Assembly: GCF_900103255.1 (NCBI RefSeq)
Contig: NZ_FMWS01000016.1
Coordinates: 1 to 64,000 of the forward strand
Direction: 5' to 3'
Source of the DNA: Gilliamella bombi
GTDB taxonomy: Bacteria > Pseudomonadota > Gammaproteobacteria > Enterobacterales > Orbaceae
Length of the DNA stretch: 64,000 nucleotides
Below the pieces are notes generated by a model. The model saw only the letters and a list, made by a program, of their open reading frames with translations. It searched no databases and was not told the DNA's origin. Shown one piece after another: positions 43,094-52,366 of the stretch; position 1 is the stretch's first letter; every line of letters starts with the position of its first letter. The position numbers and the translations under genes were made by a program.

Positions 43094-43124
43094 TAGTATT
43101 TTATCTGAAACAGATAAAATACTA
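43094..43124 (-). terminator. hairpin at the end of the citrate response-regulator gene
   Basis: A perfect 14-bp stem (TAGTATTTTATCTG / CAGATAAAATACTA) with a 3-nt loop includes the stop codon of the response regulator. It is AT-rich and lacks a proper T run on the minus strand, so it may stabilise the 3' end rather than terminate. Confidence 0.5.
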
Positions 43125-43823
43125 TTTCCCTAAACGTTTATATAGCCTTTCTGGTCGTCCAATTTTTCCATGATTAAGTTCGACTGTTAATAATTTGATT
43201 TGTACACAATATTCTAAATATCGCCTAGCGGTCGTTTTGCTAATATTGGCTTTTTCGACTATTTCGTCAACAGTGAGTGCTTTATCGGTTTGCATAAATA
43301 AGTCTTTGACTTTTTGTAGTGTGATTTCTTCAATCCCTTTGGAGTGGCGGTTCATATCAACAAAATCTTTAGTTTGCAAATTGAAAAGTTCGTCTATTTT
43401 TCGTTGATTGACATGTTTTTGTAGGCTTTGTCGGTATAAAAATAGTTCAAAACGCTCAAGCGAGTGTTTTAGCCTTTGGTAAGATACGGGCTTTATTAAG
43501 TAGTCAAAAGCGCCATAACGAATCGCTTTACTACAAGTATCCATATCACTTGCGGCTGTAATAAAAATAACATAGCAATCTAGATGATTATTTATGATGT
43601 ATTCAAATAATTCTATTCCTTTGCCGTCAGGTAAATAATTATCGAGTAATATTAAGGTCGGTTTTAGTTTTTCTACCATTATTTTAGCTTCTTCTAGTGT
43701 TGAAGCTATTCCAATTACTTTAACCTTTGTATCTTTTTGAATAAACTCTGCATTTAGTTCTGCTAAAATTGGCTCATCTTCAACAATAAGCACTTTGATA
43801 TTATCTTCTTGAAATTGATTCAT
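43122..43823 (-). CDS. citB: CitB/DpiA-family response regulator of citrate fermentation
   Basis: 233 residues. The N-terminal receiver domain has the acidic pair ED at 15-16, phosphoacceptor D61 (LILLDNYLPDG), the Thr in FITAASD and Lys in YLIKPVSY. The C-terminal winged helix (about 165-230: VDEIVEKANISKTTARRYLEYC) is typical of the CitB/DcuR family. It is 15 bases downstream of its sensor kinase and divergent from citS, as in Klebsiella citAB/citS. Expected to activate the citS and FAH-citCDEFX promoters when citrate is present. Confidence 0.9.
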   Translation of the reverse strand: MNQFQEDNIKVLIVEDEPILAELNAEFIQKDTKVKVIGIASTLEEAKIMVEKLKPTLILLDNYLPDGKGIELFEYIINNHLDCYVIFITAASDMDTCSKAIRYGAFDYLIKPVSYQRLKHSLERFELFLYRQSLQKHVNQRKIDELFNLQTKDFVDMNRHSKGIEEITLQKVKDLFMQTDKALTVDEIVEKANISKTTARRYLEYCVQIKLLTVELNHGKIGRPERLYKRLGK

Positions 43824-43838
43824 ATAATTGCCTTTTTA

Positions 43839-45428
43839 TTATTTAGGTATAAATACAGAAAAAATTGTTCCATAAGGGGTATTATCTTCAAATGTAATAT
43901 AACCATTGGCCTTTTTTATATAGGTCGAAACAAGGTGTAAACCAATACCGTGTTCTTTACCTTCTTGCGATGTGACGCCAGGTTCGAAAATTGAATCGCG
44001 AATATTTTCATCAATGCCACAGCCTTGATCAGTTACCTCTAATACAACTTCATTTGTTGCGTCGCTTAGATAGAGATAAATGGTTTTATCACCACGATCA
44101 TTTTTTAAGCTAGCATTAAAAGCATTATCAAGCAAATTTCCTAAAATTGACATAAATTCTATTTCGGTGATAAGTGAAGGTAATGCATTTAATTGGCATG
44201 CTGGATCAAATACTAGATTTAAGCCAATTTCGTGTGCTTTTGAATATTTGCCAATTAATAAACCACATATAGCCGGCACATTAAAATGTTTGGTAATAAA
44301 GTCTAAATTACTTTGGTTATCGGCAGAATGCAATGCAATAAATGATTGCGCTTCATCATACCGTTTCATATATATTAAACCTGATAGCGTTGCTAACCAG
44401 TTAAGATGTTCATGCCTTAATGCGCGTAAATTATCGACATATTGTGTTACTTGCGTTAATTGCATACTTAATACATTAATATCATCAAAATTACGAAAAG
44501 TAATTACCCAGCCTTGAATTTTATCATCAATAACCACTCGAACTCGGCTGGCAATAACAATCATGTTATTGAAATAGCATATATGATCGTGTATGTCTTC
44601 AGTTTGATTTTCTTTTTTGTAGATAAAGTCACTTGAGGTGATAAATTCGCTTAAATCATGTTTATGTAACTCGTCATCATTTATCTTAATATCTAACATT
44701 GTGCGAGCAGATTGATTAATATTGATAATTTTATAATTAAGATCAATGGCGATAACACCTTCAAAAATCGATTCCATGATCGACTTTTGGCTTTTTACCA
44801 GTAGTGCGATTACTTTAGGCTCTAAATTGAACATCTGTTTTTTAATTGCTTTTGAAAAACAATATGAAAAGATAAATAATGCTAAGAATAACAAAGAACA
44901 AAAAATGATAAACGGTATAAACTGTTTTATATGCAATGCATAAATACCATCAATCATATAACCGACCGAGACTATACCAATAATCTTACCGTTTTCAATA
45001 ATTGGAGCTTTCCCCCTTAATGCTAAACCAAGAGAACCCTCACTAATAGTGATGCTACTATTACCGTTAAGAACCTCTTGATTATCCCCTCCTACCATGG
45101 GGGAATCTAAGGGGCTATTAGCTGTATGAAATAAACGGTTAGCATTAGCATCGCCAATAACAATATAGCTTGCATCACTTTGTTTAAATATATCTGTGAT
45201 TAAATTTGCTATTTTATTTGTATCTTTGTCTTTGACATATTCAATTAAACTTGGTAAAACAGATAACTCTTTTGCTTGAATTTGCGCTTTTTCGCCCAAA
45301 CTTCGATACAAATTTATTTCAGTTGTGTTCCAAATATAGCTTTGTAATAGCACAAGAACAATCAACGAAAAAAACAAAAGCGATAAAAAAAGTTTTGTGG
45401 TAAACGATAAGTGGATTTTCCTTCGCAT
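43839..45428 (-). CDS. citA: CitA/DpiB-family citrate sensor histidine kinase
   Basis: 529-residue membrane sensor. TM1 (about 12-30), periplasmic PAS-like citrate-binding domain (about 40-165, with SLGLALRGKAPI and GIVSVGYMIDGI), TM2 (about 170-190), cytoplasmic PAS (about 205-320, SIMESIFEGVIAID), then a DHp helix LRALRHEHLNWLATLSGLIYM with the phosphoacceptor His, and the HATPase domain with N-box LGNLLDNAFNASL, G1 EVTDQGCGID and G2 GKEHGIGLHLV. Partner of the response regulator directly downstream. It is divergent from citS across 184 bp. Confidence 0.92.
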   Translation of the reverse strand: MRRKIHLSFTTKLFLSLLFFSLIVLVLLQSYIWNTTEINLYRSLGEKAQIQAKELSVLPSLIEYVKDKDTNKIANLITDIFKQSDASYIVIGDANANRLFHTANSPLDSPMVGGDNQEVLNGNSSITISEGSLGLALRGKAPIIENGKIIGIVSVGYMIDGIYALHIKQFIPFIIFCSLLFLALFIFSYCFSKAIKKQMFNLEPKVIALLVKSQKSIMESIFEGVIAIDLNYKIININQSARTMLDIKINDDELHKHDLSEFITSSDFIYKKENQTEDIHDHICYFNNMIVIASRVRVVIDDKIQGWVITFRNFDDINVLSMQLTQVTQYVDNLRALRHEHLNWLATLSGLIYMKRYDEAQSFIALHSADNQSNLDFITKHFNVPAICGLLIGKYSKAHEIGLNLVFDPACQLNALPSLITEIEFMSILGNLLDNAFNASLKNDRGDKTIYLYLSDATNEVVLEVTDQGCGIDENIRDSIFEPGVTSQEGKEHGIGLHLVSTYIKKANGYITFEDNTPYGTIFSVFIPK

Positions 45429-45612: not shown

Positions 45613-47028
45613 ATGGTGAATTTTAACTCATCTGAGAAAAACATTAATGAAAAAGAATCAACAGGTAAGACTGCTACAGAAAATCTAACAGGTTGGCCAT
45701 ATAATTGGTGGCGACTAATGGATAATTATAAAATTGGTGTAATCCCACTTCCATTATTTATTATCGCTGGTATTCTTATTTGTGTAGAAGTGTTAGTAAC
45801 AGGTAAATTACCTAGCGAAATAGTTGTAATGGTGGTAACGTGTGGCTTCTTTGGCTTTTTATGTGGCGAAATTGGTAAACGCTTACCGATTGTTGGAAAA
45901 ATGGGTGCTGCCGCAATTTGTGCAACCTTTATTCCTTCTGCATTAGTTTATTATGGTATTCTTCCTAAACCAATCGTTGTTGCAACAGAAAAATTCTATG
46001 AAGATACACATATTCTTTATTTATATATCTGTTGTATCATCGTGGGTAGTATTATGAATATGGATAAGAAAACACTTATCCAAGGGTTCTTAAAGATTTT
46101 TATTCCAATGCTATGTGGCGAAATTGTTGGGATGTTAGTTGGTATAAGTGTAGGTTATTTACTTGGCCTTAATGTAGCTCATACATTCTTCTTTTTAGTA
46201 TTACCAATTATGGCTGGTGGTGTTGGTGAAGGTGCTATTCCACTATCAATAGGTTACGGTGATCTACTGGGTATTAAAGATGGTTTAAGCCGCGTGTTAC
46301 CTATTGTTATGTTAGGGGGATTAACAGGTATTATTTGTGGTGGTATCCTTAACCGTATTGGTAAAGCTTATCCACACTTAACAGGTAATGGTAAATTATT
46401 CCCAGAAAGTGATAACACCAATACCTCTGATAAAAAAATGCTTAAATCTGAAATAGTTATTGATGTAACAACTTTTGCCTCAGGTGTACTTTTAGCCACA
46501 CTACTGTATATGATTGGAATGCTTGTCAAAGCGGTAACAGGTATTCCTGCACCTGTAGGAATGTTGTTTGCAGCTGTTTTGGTAAAACTAATATCGGGTG
46601 TATCACCAAAAGTATTGAGTGGTTCACAAGTGGTTTATAAATTTTTCCAAACATCTGTTACTTATCCAATTTTATTTGCGGTAGGAGTGGCTGTCACTGA
46701 ATGGAAAGACATTATTGCAGCTTTCACACTAACAAATTTAACGGTTATTATTTGTACAGTTGTTAGCCTAGTTACAACTGGTTTCTTTGTTTCGAAGAAA
46801 TTAGGCATGTATCCGATCGATGCAGCTGTTATTTCTTGTTGCCAAAGTGGGCAAGGAGGAACAGGCGATGTAGCTATTTTGACAGCAGCAGAACGTATGG
46901 AATTAATGCCATTTGCACAAATTGCTACCCGCATCGGAGGTGCAATTAATGTGTCTTTATCGTTACTAATACTTGCCCATGTTTTATTAAAATATAACTT
47001 AGTTAGTATAGCCGATTTAATAAATTAA
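45613..47028 (+). CDS. citS: 2-hydroxycarboxylate transporter family citrate:sodium symporter
   Basis: 471-residue inner-membrane symporter of the 2HCT family. An N-terminal hydrophilic segment of about 35 residues precedes 10-11 hydrophobic segments. The two re-entrant-loop signatures are visible: GGVGEGAIPLSIGYGDLLG (about 200-218) and CQSGQGGTGDVAILTAAERMELMPFAQIATRIGGA (about 413-447), the latter with the Arg that binds substrate carboxylate in CitS. Citrate is the likely substrate given the cit context; malate or other 2-hydroxycarboxylates are possible. GGAG lies about 10 bases before the start. A strong terminator follows. Confidence 0.92.
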   Translation: MVNFNSSEKNINEKESTGKTATENLTGWPYNWWRLMDNYKIGVIPLPLFIIAGILICVEVLVTGKLPSEIVVMVVTCGFFGFLCGEIGKRLPIVGKMGAAAICATFIPSALVYYGILPKPIVVATEKFYEDTHILYLYICCIIVGSIMNMDKKTLIQGFLKIFIPMLCGEIVGMLVGISVGYLLGLNVAHTFFFLVLPIMAGGVGEGAIPLSIGYGDLLGIKDGLSRVLPIVMLGGLTGIICGGILNRIGKAYPHLTGNGKLFPESDNTNTSDKKMLKSEIVIDVTTFASGVLLATLLYMIGMLVKAVTGIPAPVGMLFAAVLVKLISGVSPKVLSGSQVVYKFFQTSVTYPILFAVGVAVTEWKDIIAAFTLTNLTVIICTVVSLVTTGFFVSKKLGMYPIDAAVISCCQSGQGGTGDVAILTAAERMELMPFAQIATRIGGAINVSLSLLILAHVLLKYNLVSIADLIN

Positions 47029-47041
47029 GTTTAATCACTAA

Positions 47042-47071
47042 AAAACAACCTTAGTTTATACTAAGGTTGTT
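47042..47071 (+). terminator. intrinsic terminator after citS
   Basis: A perfect 13-bp stem (AAACAACCTTAGT / ACTAAGGTTGTTT) with a TTAT loop is followed by ATTTTAT. It separates citS from the FAH-citCDEFX operon, so the operon needs its own promoter or read-through. Confidence 0.85.
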
Positions 47072-47115
47072 TATTTTATAGTTACAATTAACAAAATAGC
47101 TTTTAAGGAGTTTTC

Positions 47116-47955
47116 ATGAAGCTTGTCAGTTATCTTGTCTCTGGTAGAGCAAGTTTTGGTCTTCTTACTCACAACGGTATTGTTGATTTAAAGCAAAAAT
47201 TAGGTGATAAATATGCCGATTTAAAATCACTACTTGCCGATAAAGAAGGACTATCTATTGCCAAAACCTACCTTAATGCCCCAAGTGACATTGATGAACA
47301 AGACATTACTTATTTACCCGTTATTCCAAATCCAAATAAAATCTTGTGTGTTGGTATGAACTATGCCGAAAAACGAGCAGAATTTAATGAAACCAGTTCA
47401 GCACCAACGCTTTTTGTTCGTTTCCCTGATTCTCAAACAGGTCATAAAACCAACATTATTAAACCAGCTATTACTAATGAGTTGGATTATGAAGGAGAAT
47501 TAGCTATTATTATAGGTAAAGCTGGTTTTCGCATTAAGCAAGAAGATGCGTTATCATATGTAGCTGGCTATAGCTGTTATATGGATGGTTCTATTCGCGA
47601 CTGGCAATATACTTGGTTTACCGCAGGTAAAAACTGGCCTAGCACTGGTGCTTTCGGTCCATGTATTACAACAAGCGATGAAATTCCTGATCCAAAAGTA
47701 TTATCTTTAACTACTTATTTAAATGGCGAGCAAATGCAACATGATTCAGTTAAAAATCTTGTGCATACTGTGCCTGAATTAATTTCTTATATTAGTACTT
47801 TTACACGTTTATCTCCAGGTGATGTTATTCTTACTGGATCACCAGGTGGAGTTGGTAAAAAACGTAATCCTCCAGTATTTATGAAAGATGGCGATACAAT
47901 TGAAGTCGAAATTACAGGAATTGGTCGACTAACTAATTATGTAGTAGCTGAATAG
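47116..47955 (+). CDS. fumarylacetoacetate hydrolase (FAH) family protein, candidate oxaloacetate decarboxylase
   Basis: 279 residues. The FAH fold begins near residue 75 (KILCVGMNYAEKRAEF). The metal site is LDYEGELAIIIG (ExE) and the downstream Asp in CYMDGSIRDWQ; the C-terminal LTGSPGGVG loop is conserved. Family members act on acylpyruvates and related oxo-acids, and some (human FAHD1, Corynebacterium Cg1458) decarboxylate oxaloacetate. It is first gene of the citC-D-E-F-X operon, 10 bases before citC, and no oadGAB is nearby, so conversion of the citrate lyase product oxaloacetate to pyruvate is a reasonable inference. An AAGGAG site precedes the ATG. Confidence 0.85.
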   Translation: MKLVSYLVSGRASFGLLTHNGIVDLKQKLGDKYADLKSLLADKEGLSIAKTYLNAPSDIDEQDITYLPVIPNPNKILCVGMNYAEKRAEFNETSSAPTLFVRFPDSQTGHKTNIIKPAITNELDYEGELAIIIGKAGFRIKQEDALSYVAGYSCYMDGSIRDWQYTWFTAGKNWPSTGAFGPCITTSDEIPDPKVLSLTTYLNGEQMQHDSVKNLVHTVPELISYISTFTRLSPGDVILTGSPGGVGKKRNPPVFMKDGDTIEVEITGIGRLTNYVVAE

Positions 47956-47965
47956 AGGTAAATTT

Positions 47966-49000
47966 ATGTACGATTTAGTTGATTATGCCGTTGTTGATAT
48001 TTCTAAAGCAGAACAAGATTATAAAGAAGTTAAACAGTTGCTATCTCGCTCTGATCTTGATCTGGATTCACAAGTTACTGTTTTTATGGTAGCTAAAATC
48101 AATGAACAAATTATTGCTTGTGCAGGTATTGATCGCAATATTATTAAATGTGTTGCTATTGATCCTAATTATCGTGGCAATCAACTAAATCTAACCTTGA
48201 TGGATCATGCAATAAAATATGCCAATGAAAACGGCTATTTTCATCTTTTTCTATATACAAAACCCGAAAATATAGATTTTTTTAAGGGATGTGGGTTTTA
48301 TCCTATTGTTGAAATAACAGATCTTGTTGTCCTAATGGAAAACAATCCAGTTGGAATAAGGCAATATTGTAAACAACTAAGCACGCAACAAAAAGAAGGG
48401 AGCAAAATTGGTAGCATTGTTATGAATGCTAATCCTTTCACTAAAGGCCATCAATATCTTATTCAATATGCTGCAAGTCAATGTGATTGGTTGCATGTTT
48501 TTGTTGTCAATGAAAATGCATCGCTATTTTCATTTGATACACGTTTGAAGTTAGTTAAAGATGGTACTAAACAGATAAAGAATGTGACGGTACATGCAAG
48601 TTCTCCTTATATTATTTCAAGAGCAACATTTCCAACTTATTTTCTAAAAGATAAGACAAAAATCGATCAGGCCTATATGGGTATCGATCTGCTTATATTC
48701 CGAAATTATATTGCTCCAGCGCTTAATATTAACTATCGATTTGTTGGAACTGAACCCTATGACGAAGTAACGAAGGCTTATAATGAAGCGATGTCTTATT
48801 GGCTTGAAGATAAAGCAGTTAGTAATCACTCCGCAATTACCTTTGTTGAAGTTCAACGAATAACCGAAGGTGATACTATTGTATCAGCTTCATTAGTAAG
48901 AAAATTATTGGCATCAGGGCAATATGAAGAGGTAAAAAAACTAGTTCCATCTACTACATGGGATTACCTTTCAGCTAATTTGGATAAATTTAAAATTTAA
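47966..49000 (+). CDS. citC: [citrate (pro-3S)-lyase] ligase
   Basis: Acetylates the thiol of the citrate lyase prosthetic group using ATP and acetate, activating the enzyme. It has 344 residues: an N-terminal GNAT-like domain (about 1-120, CVAIDPNYRGNQLNLTLMDHA) and a C-terminal nucleotidyltransferase domain with VMNANPFTKGHQYLIQYAA near residue 150 (TKGH replaces HxGH, usual in CitC) and SASLVRKLLASGQYEEV near the end. It sits between the FAH gene and citD. Confidence 0.95.
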   Translation: MYDLVDYAVVDISKAEQDYKEVKQLLSRSDLDLDSQVTVFMVAKINEQIIACAGIDRNIIKCVAIDPNYRGNQLNLTLMDHAIKYANENGYFHLFLYTKPENIDFFKGCGFYPIVEITDLVVLMENNPVGIRQYCKQLSTQQKEGSKIGSIVMNANPFTKGHQYLIQYAASQCDWLHVFVVNENASLFSFDTRLKLVKDGTKQIKNVTVHASSPYIISRATFPTYFLKDKTKIDQAYMGIDLLIFRNYIAPALNINYRFVGTEPYDEVTKAYNEAMSYWLEDKAVSNHSAITFVEVQRITEGDTIVSASLVRKLLASGQYEEVKKLVPSTTWDYLSANLDKFKI

Positions 49001-49021: not shown

Positions 49022-49312
49022 ATGAAAATACAAAAAGAAGCCATGGCGGGGACTCTTGAATCTAGCGATTTGTTAGTCAAAGTCATGCCAAACACGGGAA
49101 TTGAAATTGTTATTAATAGTGATGTTAATAAACAATTTGGCGATCAAATCCGTGCGGTTGTTAATCAAACTTTAAATGAGCTTAATGTAACCGACGGTTT
49201 AATCATTATTGATGATAAAGGTGCACTTGATTGCGCTATTAAAGCTAGAGTTCAATGTGCAGTTTTACGTGGCGCAGAAGAAGAAAACTTAGATTGGAGT
49301 AAATTACTATGA
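49022..49312 (+). CDS. citD: citrate lyase acyl carrier protein (gamma subunit)
   Basis: 96-residue carrier that holds the triphosphoribosyl-dephospho-CoA-derived group. The attachment Ser is S14 in [15 protein letters not shown], the same position as in Klebsiella CitD. The rest ([20 protein letters not shown]) is typical. It overlaps citE by 4 bases, so the two subunits are translationally coupled. Confidence 0.96.
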
Positions 49313-50196
49313 AAAAATTACGTCGAAGTATGCTATTTCTTCCAGGTGCAAACGCCGCTATGTTATCAACTTCGTTTGTTTATAAGCCTGATTCAATCAT
49401 GTTCGATCTTGAAGATGCCGTTTCAATTAAGGAAAAAGATTCAGCACGTTTATTAGTTGCACAAACTTTACTTCTTCCTGTTTATAAAGAGCACGGGATT
49501 GAAACAGTAGTACGAATCAACGCACTTGATACTCCATTTGGTTTAAAAGACCTTGAAGCAGTTGTACGAGCGGGTGTTGATGTAGTACGTTTACCTATGA
49601 CTAACTGTGCTGAAGATATTCATGAGTTAGAAGCCCATGTTGAAAGAATCGAAAAAGAGTGTGGGCGTGAAGTTGGTAGCACTAAATTAATGGCTGCAAT
49701 CGAATCTGCTCAAGGTGTTGTTAATGCCGTTTCTATCGCTAAATCTTCTCCACGTTTAATCGGTATTGCGCTAGCTGCATTTGACTATCTTGTTGATATG
49801 CAAACTGAACGTGGCGATGGTACAGAATTATTCTATGCTCGCTGTGCAGTATTGCATGCAGCACGTGTGGCTAAAATTGATGCTTTTGACGTTGTTTACT
49901 CTAATGTTAATGATGATGAAGGTTTCTTGAAAGAAGTCAGCTTAATCAAAAAATTAGGTTACAACGGTAAATCGCTCATTAATCCTAGACAAATTGACCT
50001 GCTCCACAATGCTTATGCTCCAACAGCAGCTGAAGTTGAACATGCTCAAAAAGTAGTTGAAGCAGCAGAAGAAGGAGAAAGAAAAGGCCTTGGCGTTATT
50101 TCTCTAAATGGCAAAATGATTGATGCACCGATTATTGCTCGAGCTAGAAAAGTTATCGAGTTGGCTAAGTATTCTGGTGTACGTAAAGAAATTTGA
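49309..50196 (+). CDS. citE: citrate lyase beta subunit (citryl-ACP lyase)
   Basis: Cleaves citryl-ACP to acetyl-ACP and oxaloacetate. It has 295 residues of the HpcH/HpaI TIM-barrel type. Seen: [30 protein letters not shown] (metal and substrate region), [27 protein letters not shown] with the metal-binding Glu, and [18 protein letters not shown]. The C-terminus [13 protein letters not shown] is standard. Confidence 0.96.
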
Positions 50197-50208: not shown

Positions 50209-51738
50209 ATGACTACTTCTATAAACAAAAAAATTGATGATTTGCTTAAACAGCACCCTGATCTCAAGAATATTAAGCCTTTTGTTGATGCTAACGCAAC
50301 AACTCCATATTTAAAAGATGAGTCTAAATACACGCGTAAATTGTGTGATTCTATTGAGCAAGCAATTAAAAAATGTGAATTGCGTGATGGTATGACTATC
50401 TCTTTTCACCATGCATTTCGTGAAGGCGATAAGGTTATCAACAAAGTTGTTGAGACTATCAGTAATTTAGGCATTAAAAATTTGACGCTAGCTTCAAGTT
50501 CCTTATTAAGCTGTAACTCAGCGTTAATTCCTCATATCGAATCTGGTGTAATTACTAAAATTTATACCTCTGGTTTACGTGGTAAATTAGCCGATGCGAT
50601 TTCTCACGGTTTAATGGATAACCCAGTCCATATCCATTCTCATGGTGGACGTGTAAAACTGATCCAAAGTGGTGAAATTAACATTGATATCGCATTTTTA
50701 GCTGTATCAACCGCTGATGAACAAGGTAACGCTAATGGTGTATCTGGAAAATCACAATGTGGTGCTCTAGGTTATGCTATGGTTGATGCGCAATTTGCGA
50801 AGAAAGTTGTACTATTAACTGAGGATATTGTTGGATATCCTAACCATCCAGCAAGTATTCGCCAAGATCAAGTTGATTATATTGTTAAAGTTGATGAAGT
50901 GGGTGACCCAACTAAAATTAGTGTGGGCGCAGCGCGTATCACTAGTAATCCACGCGAACTGATGATCGCTCGTTATGCAGCTGATGTTATTGAACACTCT
51001 GGTTATTTTAAAGATGGTTTTTCAATCCAAACTGGTTCTGGTGCATCGTCAACTGCAGCAACTCGTTTCCTTGAAAATCGCATGCGTGCGAAAAATATCA
51101 CTGCATCATTTGCTTTAGGTGGTATTACAGCAAGTATTGTTGATCTTCACGAAAAAGGATTAGTTAAACGTTTATTAGATACTCAAAGTTTTGACGGCAC
51201 TGCGGGGCAATCTTTAGGTAAAAATAAAGATCATATCGAAGTTTCAACTAATGTTTATGCAAATCCTGCCTCAAAAGGTGCAAGTGTTGATGAGCTTGAT
51301 ATTGTTATTTTAAGTGCGTTAGAAATCGACCTTGATTACAATGTTAATGTATTAACTGGTTCTGACGGTGTAATGCGCGGTGCTTCTGGTGGTCACTGTG
51401 ATACAGCTGCTGGTGCAAACTTAACAATTGTTGTTGCGCCACTCATTCGTAGCCGTATTCCAACAGTAATTAAAAAGGTAACAACATTAGTTACTCCTGG
51501 TGAGAGCGTTGATGTGCTAGTCACTGACCATGGTATTGCTGTTAACCCTAATCGTCCAGAAATTGCTGAACGTTTAAAAGCAGCTAACTTACCAATTATG
51601 AGCATTGAAGAGCTTTATCAACGTGCTGTGTCTTTAACTGGTGAACCAAAACCAATCGAATTTAATGATAAAATCGTTGGTATCGTACATTTCCGTGATG
51701 GCTCTGTTATTGATGTCGTACGCCAAGTTAAAGATTAA
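50209..51738 (+). CDS. citF: citrate lyase alpha subunit (citrate-ACP transferase)
   Basis: Transfers citrate onto the carrier in exchange for acetate. It has 509 residues, the usual CitF length. Seen: DGMTISFHHAFREGDKVIN, SHGGRVKLIQSGE, FLAVSTADEQGNANGVSGKSQCGALGYA, GGITASIVDLHEKGLV, SGGHCDTAAGANLTIVVAPLIR and VLVTDHGIAVNP, all CitF/CoA-transferase-like family stretches. It lies 12 bases after citE and is followed by a terminator-like hairpin before citX. Confidence 0.96.
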   Translation: MTTSINKKIDDLLKQHPDLKNIKPFVDANATTPYLKDESKYTRKLCDSIEQAIKKCELRDGMTISFHHAFREGDKVINKVVETISNLGIKNLTLASSSLLSCNSALIPHIESGVITKIYTSGLRGKLADAISHGLMDNPVHIHSHGGRVKLIQSGEINIDIAFLAVSTADEQGNANGVSGKSQCGALGYAMVDAQFAKKVVLLTEDIVGYPNHPASIRQDQVDYIVKVDEVGDPTKISVGAARITSNPRELMIARYAADVIEHSGYFKDGFSIQTGSGASSTAATRFLENRMRAKNITASFALGGITASIVDLHEKGLVKRLLDTQSFDGTAGQSLGKNKDHIEVSTNVYANPASKGASVDELDIVILSALEIDLDYNVNVLTGSDGVMRGASGGHCDTAAGANLTIVVAPLIRSRIPTVIKKVTTLVTPGESVDVLVTDHGIAVNPNRPEIAERLKAANLPIMSIEELYQRAVSLTGEPKPIEFNDKIVGIVHFRDGSVIDVVRQVKD

Positions 51739-51758: not shown

Positions 51759-51800
51759 GTAATAGCCTGACATGTAAAAGTGTCATGCTATTACTTTTCT
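51759..51800 (+). terminator. attenuator-like hairpin between citF and citX
   Basis: A 14-bp stem with one mismatch (GTAATAGCCTGACA against TGTCATGCTATTAC), an 8-nt loop and a TTTTCT tail lies 20 bases after citF and just before citX. It would reduce transcription of citX relative to the structural subunits. Confidence 0.7.
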
Positions 51801-51805
51801 ATTTG

Positions 51806-52366
51806 ATGAAAAAAATGCAAATTAAATTTGATGATGGCACTCCTATTACCCTTGAGCAAATGCTACTAGCCAAGGAAAAGCGAGTTGAAAACCAAAAGCA
51901 TGCAATGACATGCTATAAATATCCAATCATATCATTAAGCATAGTTATTCCTGGTCCTATAAAAAACAGTAGCGGAGCCCGTTATCTTTTTGACGAAGCA
52001 ATTAAAGCTTTACATCTCTGTTTTTTACAAAACGATATAACAATAATCAATGAAGATCATTTCCATTACATTACTGGTTCAGAAGCAATCATAGCAATTA
52101 AATGTTCAGCTAAAACCCTTAAAAAATATTGTATTGAAGTTGAAAATAATCATCCCTTAGGGCGTTTGTGGGATATTGATGTTATTGACATTGTTACACA
52201 AAATAGCCTGTCACGTTCTCAATTCGAAAATCAACCAAGACAATGTTTGGTCTGCAATGAAGAGGCAAAAATTTGTGGTAGAGCTAAACGGCATTCAATT
52301 GATGAAATTTTTACCGCGATAAAAAAGAAAATAGAAAATTTCAGAAAGAATAAAACATCACTTTAA
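51806..52366 (+). CDS. citX: apo-citrate lyase phosphoribosyl-dephospho-CoA transferase
   Basis: Transfers the CitG product onto apo-CitD. Family motifs: SLSIVIPGPIKNSSGARYLFDEA, HPLGRLWDIDVID, and RQCLVCNEEAKICGRAKRHS near the C-terminus. The reading frame opens at 51785, but that ATG lies inside the right arm of the terminator hairpin, so I chose the ATG at 51806 (186 residues); 51815 is also possible. No clear ribosome-binding site is present, suggesting low expression, which suits a modifying enzyme. Confidence 0.92.
   Translation: MKKMQIKFDDGTPITLEQMLLAKEKRVENQKHAMTCYKYPIISLSIVIPGPIKNSSGARYLFDEAIKALHLCFLQNDITIINEDHFHYITGSEAIIAIKCSAKTLKKYCIEVENNHPLGRLWDIDVIDIVTQNSLSRSQFENQPRQCLVCNEEAKICGRAKRHSIDEIFTAIKKKIENFRKNKTSL

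Follow-up and report, generated by a model that had tools for sequence, protein, structure and literature searches.

The FAH-family gene that heads the citrate lyase genes of Gilliamella bombi probably encodes a soluble oxaloacetate decarboxylase. Judging from gene context and active-site residues, we give this reading a probability of roughly two in three. The window, i.e., the whole stretch of DNA analysed, comprises 64,000 nucleotides (assembly GCF_900103255.1, contig NZ_FMWS01000016.1, positions 1-64,000, forward strand). The following features were located around the gene:

43122..43823, - strand: divergent gene of a CitB/DpiA-like response regulator (210 bits, below the DpiA model cut-off of 264)
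43839..45428, - strand: divergent gene of a CitA/DpiB-like sensor kinase (488 bits, below the DpiB model cut-off of 656)
45613..47028, + strand: 2-hydroxycarboxylate transporter (2HCT) family gene (TIGR00783, 408 bits, below the cut-off of 549)
47043..47072, + strand: terminator- or attenuator-like hairpin of 13 pairs with a T-rich tail, between the transporter and FAH genes (hairpin scan)
47116..47955, + strand: FAH-family gene, 279 aa, 'MKR' clade (our label, after M81, K86 and R87), candidate soluble metal-dependent oxaloacetate decarboxylase
47353..47382, + strand: altered lid motif of the FAH protein, residues 80-89, GMNYAEKRAE (G80, M81, K86, R87 and E89 invariant in 81/81)
47966..49000, + strand: citC, citrate lyase ligase (TIGR00124, 397 bits, cut-off 262)
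49022..49312, + strand: citD, citrate lyase acyl carrier protein (above the NCBIfam cut-off)
49309..50196, + strand: citE, citrate lyase beta subunit (above the NCBIfam cut-off)
50209..51738, + strand: citF, citrate lyase alpha subunit (TIGR01584, 769 bits)
51785..52366, + strand: citX, citrate lyase holo-ACP synthase (above the NCBIfam cut-off)

The initial annotation had described an FAH-family gene with preserved metal ligands, located 10 bases before citC and leading a citCDEFX operon. This description is borne out. The reading frame is intact from its ATG start, the spacing to the citC start at 47966 is 10 bases, and citCDEFX follow directly, all five above their NCBIfam cut-offs. The metal ligands E126, E128 and D157 are invariant in 81/81 sequences, a set consisting of the window protein and 80 relatives.

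The 279-aa protein matches PF01557 (FAA_hydrolase) over the complete profile (1-214 of 214, 206 bits, E 5.9e-61, cut-off 23.9) and is the sole match to this model in the 2.6 Mb assembly, whose estimated completeness is 100%. None of the NCBIfam models reaches its own cut-off with this protein. Among the best 80 of 207 relatives, the closest named ones belong to Gilliamella, with 97% identity. AlphaFold predicts the FAH fold (pLDDT 78, pTM 0.80), and Foldseek hits of the model include YisK, FAHD1 (6fog) and Cg1458 (4dbh/4dbf) with probability 1.00. The lid is badly modelled, with pLDDT below 50 at residues 84-86 and 163-171; the model was therefore used at fold level only, and the placement of K86 was not drawn from it.

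The hairpin upstream of the FAH gene deserves attention because it recurs in related loci and not because of its count in the scan, which gave 4 such sites in the region against 3.8 in shuffled sequence, i.e., no excess. Inspection by eye shows a comparable hairpin, altered on both arms, in the corresponding position of loci L002-L022 (Gilliamella and Frischella). It is likely a terminator or attenuator, and given its position between transporter and FAH gene and its recurrence, the FAH gene is probably the first gene of an enzyme operon. A promoter scan returned 22 sites versus 29.1 in shuffles, fewer than by chance, and was left unused. The upstream carrier was also considered as CitS and rejected: it scores 210 bits with the CitS model, far under 600, and its identity to the 2HCT protein encoded in L098, a cluster of the oad type, is only 31%.

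The association with citC extends well beyond the window. We fetched the best 80 of the 207 relatives, so that distant contexts are under-sampled, and found citC adjoining the FAH gene in 71 of the 80; the nine loci without citC include one (L058) whose contig ends about 200 bases past the FAH gene. In 70 of the 71, citF is also part of the locus, while in the remaining one (L030) the contig ends. The citC-linked relatives come from Orbaceae, Enterobacteriaceae, Yersiniaceae, Pectobacteriaceae, Erwiniaceae, betaproteobacteria and Telmatospirillum. The FAH-citC link is old and specific, and it spans alpha-, beta- and gammaproteobacteria. A 2HCT gene is present in 60 of the 71 citC-linked loci. 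Another nine combine an MFS carrier with a gene of the 4-oxalomesaconate-tautomerase family, and eight of these nine include an AcnB-like gene as well. Of the last two, one is truncated on the upstream side and the other has a carrier resembling AEC (103 bits, under the cut-off). FAH and cit genes stay together while the carrier and other neighbours change.

Some of these loci show arrangements of their own. In L025 (6480-18369), the neighbours of FAH-citCDEFXG are genes for an MFS carrier, an AcnB-like aconitase, a protein of the 4-oxalomesaconate-tautomerase/PrpF family and, by eye, a LysR-like protein. Clusters of this type also occur in L026, L027, L029, L031, L033, L038 and L043, and partly in L030; the arrangement appears to lead trans-aconitate, or a related tricarboxylate, to citrate lyase. 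Near FAH-cit clusters, we also observed a protein of approximately 190 aa with a PGxxDSxxxHWQ-like motif (L025 15137-15712, L028 17742-18338, L085 5101-5679), which has no NCBIfam match at E 1e-8. A remnant cluster in L085 (6810-9596) retains transporter, FAH gene and a 161-aa citC fragment beside citAB; this stretch lacks citDEF, and the same genome has two other citF clusters.

The initial annotation had asked whether FAH-citC genomes always lack oadGAB. We surveyed 394 genomes of the order and found citF matches in 72, which exceeded the cut-off of the model in 66; the six genomes with sub-cut-off matches only were left out, and weak second matches in the kept genomes were ignored. Linkage to citF was called within 6 kb for FAH and within 15 kb for OadB, and the count took in FAH matches of at least 45% identity, among them one His-type protein (G360, 49%), which is unlinked to citF. 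The 66 genomes contain 72 citF clusters, namely 44 linked to FAH, 4 linked to OadB, none linked to both and 24 linked to neither, so that a linked decarboxylase is not always needed. The 44 FAH-linked clusters represent 7 genera and 3 families; 34 of them come from the window's own family, so the 44 are not independent. A tblastn search with one canonical OadB query found none in the flanks of the 80 FAH loci. As a genome-wide rule, the exclusion is not absolute. An OadB-type gene occurs in 3/39 FAH-linked genomes versus 12/27 other citF genomes, and in 5 of the 37 genomes reached via FAH loci or the window (36 genomes of fetched loci plus the own genome), though not within the FAH flanks examined. 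G222 is a genome with both, one FAH-linked and one OadB-linked cluster. In G381, an OadB-like gene (29% identity to the L098 OadB) is found on a different contig from citF. FAH and OadB exclude each other at cluster level; the exclusion is imperfect at genome level.

For the genome of the window itself, the absence of an oad gene, first noted from the sequence of the window, extends to the whole assembly, which has no match to PF03977 (OadB) or PF02436 (PYC_OADA). The same applies to a citM-type malic enzyme, as PF00390 has no match either. Both sequence checks suggested by the initial annotation, this one and the linkage survey, speak for its reading. At E 0.001, the models of OadB, the pyruvate carboxylase/OadA domain, MDH, malic enzyme and PEPCK all remained without match, while in 14 control genomes they matched in 2, 7, 13, 13 and 5 cases, respectively. 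The aspartase model gave at best 59.7 bits (463 aa, cut-off 681), and our guess is that this match is an argininosuccinate lyase. PEP mutase stayed below its cut-off as well (21.8 versus 31.5 bits). Nothing exceeds the SdhA/FrdA cut-off (TIGR01812). The only match, at 179.5 bits, was rejected as a succinate dehydrogenase; by eye, it is an old-yellow-enzyme-like and fumarate-reductase-like fusion beside an ApbE-like gene (L097 880-4664), likely a soluble NADH:fumarate reductase.

MDH was found in 0/32 citF genomes of the window's family versus 34/34 other citF genomes. The names Orbaceae and Gilliamella for surveyed genomes follow from their kinship with the window and with named relatives. SdhA/FrdA, malic enzyme and PEPCK were searched in 28 of the 66 citF genomes, and aspartase in 16. 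Among 13 genomes of the family, none has SdhA/FrdA over cut-off, 10 have a malic-enzyme homologue, which the own genome is without, and one has PEPCK; the exclusion of exits is therefore strictest for the own genome. Four types of dedicated oxaloacetate decarboxylase are described (PMC8100219); our searches cover three, and the fourth is the type that the FAH gene resembles. A study of 95 Gilliamella genomes reports citrate lyase in every one of them, links it to acetate recycling, and lists none with the genes for a reverse-TCA path leading from oxaloacetate to fumarate; neither decarboxylase nor FAH is mentioned in that paper (PMC11325843). Since none of the exits searched gave a match over cut-off, no other catabolic exit for citrate-derived oxaloacetate was found among these enzymes in the own genome.

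These results also bear on the main rival, the view that the protein is an oxaloacetate enol-keto tautomerase similar to OAT1. Such an enzyme would not decarboxylate oxaloacetate but hold it in the keto form for the enzymes downstream, whether it comes from citrate lyase or, as enol-oxaloacetate, from tartrate dehydratase. OAT1, YcgM and the FAHD tautomerases belong to the same superfamily and have the same metal site as the window protein. In one series of assays on ten FAHD enzymes, taken from cow, human, Arabidopsis, yeast, E. coli, B. subtilis and M. maripaludis, every one is reported as a strong tautomerase and a very weak decarboxylase, the tautomerase activity being on average about 2x10^4 times the decarboxylase activity, which amounts to 0.011 U/mg for the YcgM type (PMC10825186). 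The conservation of the metal ligands and of R161, Q164 and K172 is in line with a tautomerase. To our knowledge, none of the assayed enzymes comes from a cit cluster. Tartrate dehydration should yield the enol form first, which fits the relatives linked to ttdAB, whereas citrate cleavage should yield keto-oxaloacetate directly. Moreover, the enzymes that would benefit, MDH and a standard succinate dehydrogenase, whose protection is the proposed role of OAT1, were found neither in the own genome nor, over cut-off, in the family genomes searched, and a tautomerase is less likely here because this known purpose is missing. A pure tautomerase would serve no enzyme found in the own genome and would leave oxaloacetate without a catabolic exit there. 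FAH-linked enterics also have YcgM-type FAHs, approximately 34% identical to the query, and the YcgM-type protein that we compared has the lid His where the MKR clade has Lys. A review from another group holds that decarboxylation by FAHD1 is no minor side activity (PMC12176266). We consider a pure tautomerase unlikely.

The catalytic residues of FAHD1 (PMC7056447) were mapped onto the window protein via a YcgM-type comparator and a printed FAHD1 alignment. The correspondences are G24-G80, R25-M81, H30-K86, E33-E89, K47-R102, E71-E126, E73-E128, D102-D157, Q109-Q164 and K123-K172, and all ten positions are invariant in 81/81. The His-Glu dyad of the FAH lid (H30/E33 in FAHD1) is thus replaced by K86/E89 throughout the set. 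His occupies the lid position in nine comparators and in the protein of L086 (49% identical). M81 and K86, with K or R in position 87, recur in another four relatives (52-62% identical) that lie outside complete cit clusters. The comparators, too, lack R25, and Gln and Lys occur in 8 of the 9 and are therefore non-specific; this leaves the exchange of His for Lys as the telling change. A tree splits MKR-type and His-type rows with a support of 96/95; the program warns of long branches, 34 loci were omitted for thinning, and the tree was used for this split only.

The dyad is described as activating water for hydrolysis and possibly aiding protonation in the decarboxylase path, and Gln and Lys as having roles in decarboxylation; mutation of the Gln in Cg1458 is cited as costing 98% of the decarboxylase activity (all PMC8398924). 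With Lys in place of the lid His in 81/81, the clade is not a typical FAH hydrolase. This counts against a hydrolase or isomerase of another acylpyruvate, placed in the operon for a side substrate, since the water-activating His is missing; furthermore, the cluster contains no gene known to make such a substrate. Hydrolases and an HpcE-type decarboxylase/isomerase are among the best PDB sequence and fold neighbours, and some clade members lie beside a DapA-superfamily gene, both of which fit such an enzyme. On balance, we regard it as very improbable.

A further explanation starts from the biosynthetic needs of a bacterium without MDH. Citrate lyase would then be anaplerotic and supply oxaloacetate for aspartate-family amino acids, and the FAH protein would tune the pool as a tautomerase or an overflow decarboxylase. 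The own genome indeed has no MDH match. An oxaloacetate-via-aspartate path is reported for all 95 Gilliamella genomes of the study mentioned above (PMC11325843). An overflow role was also suggested for the soluble OAD of C. glutamicum, deletion of whose gene is described as having no apparent effect (PMC8100219). Against anaplerosis, a decarboxylase as the first gene of the operon would oppose it, the FAH-cit unit also occurs in enterics with MDH, and the clade is found beside tartrate dehydratase too. This explanation appears improbable to us.

Tartrate dehydratase makes oxaloacetate, and genes of the MKR type stand next to L(+)-tartrate dehydratase genes in three betaproteobacterial loci and in one genome of the window's genus (G408). 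In G408, both dehydratase subunits exceed the NCBIfam cut-offs and MDH has no match; they share 59-69% identity with their counterparts in Pseudogulbenkiania and in the two Vogesella loci. Locus L084 (4763-8584), from a genome of the window's genus, has a second FAH gene of the MKR type together with ttdAB and an MFS carrier. Two more contexts were observed. LeuCD-like dehydratase genes directly precede an MKR-type FAH gene in L077 (6859-9849), where a tartrate-dehydrogenase-family gene is nearby, and in L081 (6800-9882); the pair is perhaps another hydroxy-acid dehydratase making oxaloacetate. A DapA-superfamily gene, an MFS carrier and an MKR-type FAH gene occur together in four loci (L083 7988-11262, L053, L067 and L070).

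The biotin-dependent, sodium-pumping OadGAB of Klebsiella and Salmonella shares both niches, citrate lyase and tartrate dehydratase, and catalyses the step proposed here for the FAH protein. In Klebsiella MGH 78578, oadGAB is located in the citrate cluster and near ttdAB, with a third copy near gal genes (PMC2735749). Unlike the FAH protein, OadGAB is a membrane complex; it has no match in the own genome and never lies beside an MKR-type FAH gene in the clusters examined. CitM of Lactococcus and Enterococcus would be alike under the decarboxylase reading in being soluble, metal-dependent, free of a sodium pump and placed after citrate lyase (PMC8100219), but is of the malic-enzyme type and belongs to an unrelated protein family, whose domain has no match in the own genome. 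Cg1458/Odx of C. glutamicum and FAHD1 (EC 4.1.1.112) have superfamily and fold in common with the window protein, and FAHD1 also the metal ligands, Gln and Lys. In structural alignments, the window protein is 27-34% identical to Cg1458; for FAHD1 the value is about 31%, and the window protein differs from FAHD1 by K86 for H30, M81 for R25 and R102 for K47.

In favour of the decarboxylase are thus the operon position, the citC linkage, the exclusion of OadB at cluster level, the retention of FAH when the carrier changes, the niches shared with Klebsiella oadGAB (PMC2735749), the results on alternative exits in the own genome, the missing MDH of the citF genomes in the window's family, the gene content reported for the 95 Gilliamella genomes (PMC11325843), and the invariance of the Gln needed by Cg1458 and of the Lys (Q164 and K172 in 81/81). 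Speaking against it are the weak decarboxylase activity of the ten assayed FAHD enzymes (PMC10825186), the MDH of the FAH-linked enterics, the malic-enzyme homologues in 10 of the 13 family genomes, the 24 citF clusters linked to neither gene, and the lid change, which could mean a different reaction. If the decarboxylase reading is correct, citrate would be taken in by the 2HCT transporter and cleaved by citrate lyase to acetate and oxaloacetate. The FAH enzyme would bind oxaloacetate by its alpha-keto acid on the metal held by E126, E128 and D157, with Q164 and R161 holding the substrate while CO2 is released. The metal-bound pyruvate enolate may then be protonated by K172, or by K86 at the place of the FAHD1 lid His, and pyruvate would give rise to lactate, formate and acetate. 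As such a pathway involves neither biotin nor a sodium pump, its energy gain would have to come from ATP made downstream, from the use of a proton in decarboxylation or from the transporter. Energy gain of this kind is known from the CitM/CitP system of lactic acid bacteria.

In gnotobiotic bees with Gilliamella, citrate was reported to decrease while pyruvate, lactate and acetate increased, and malate and fumarate were also somewhat lower (PMC11343714). These changes agree with the pathway without proving it, because sugars yield the same products. Against the pathway, citrate utilisation was scored negative for five new Orbaceae strains and Orbus hercynius, though citrate lyase is encoded, and positive for Zophobihabitans; the authors state that the citrate genes are present and their activity was unseen by that method (PMC11434166).

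From a broader point of view, the MKR-type proteins may form a separate FAH subfamily, marked by the M81/K86/R87 lid, which serves as a dedicated high-flux oxaloacetate decarboxylase. In proteobacteria that ferment citrate or tartrate, this exchangeable soluble module would stand in for OadGAB and CitM. The change from His to Lys would have turned a tautomerase or hydrolase scaffold into a true decarboxylase, and the module would enable bee-gut bacteria without MDH to obtain pyruvate from host citrate by fermentation. We see the chances of this wider proposal as evenly balanced. In a full-text literature search with most subscription journals outside its scope, no paper joined citrate lyase with the fumarylacetoacetate hydrolase family or 7-dioate isomerase, and none joined tartrate dehydratase with fumarylacetoacetate hydrolase. 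The papers naming citrate lyase, fumarylacetoacetate hydrolase and oxaloacetate decarboxylase together concern, judging by title and abstract, mitochondrial or cancer metabolism.

If true, a small metal-dependent soluble enzyme replaces a well-known sodium-pumping enzyme in a bee-gut bacterium. This would provide a physiological setting for the FAH-type oxaloacetate decarboxylases, whose main activity, tautomerase or decarboxylase, is disputed, and the His-to-Lys change in the lid represents a natural experiment on this matter. It would also offer a route by which Gilliamella may convert citrate in the bee gut to pyruvate, lactate and acetate, available to its partner Snodgrassella.
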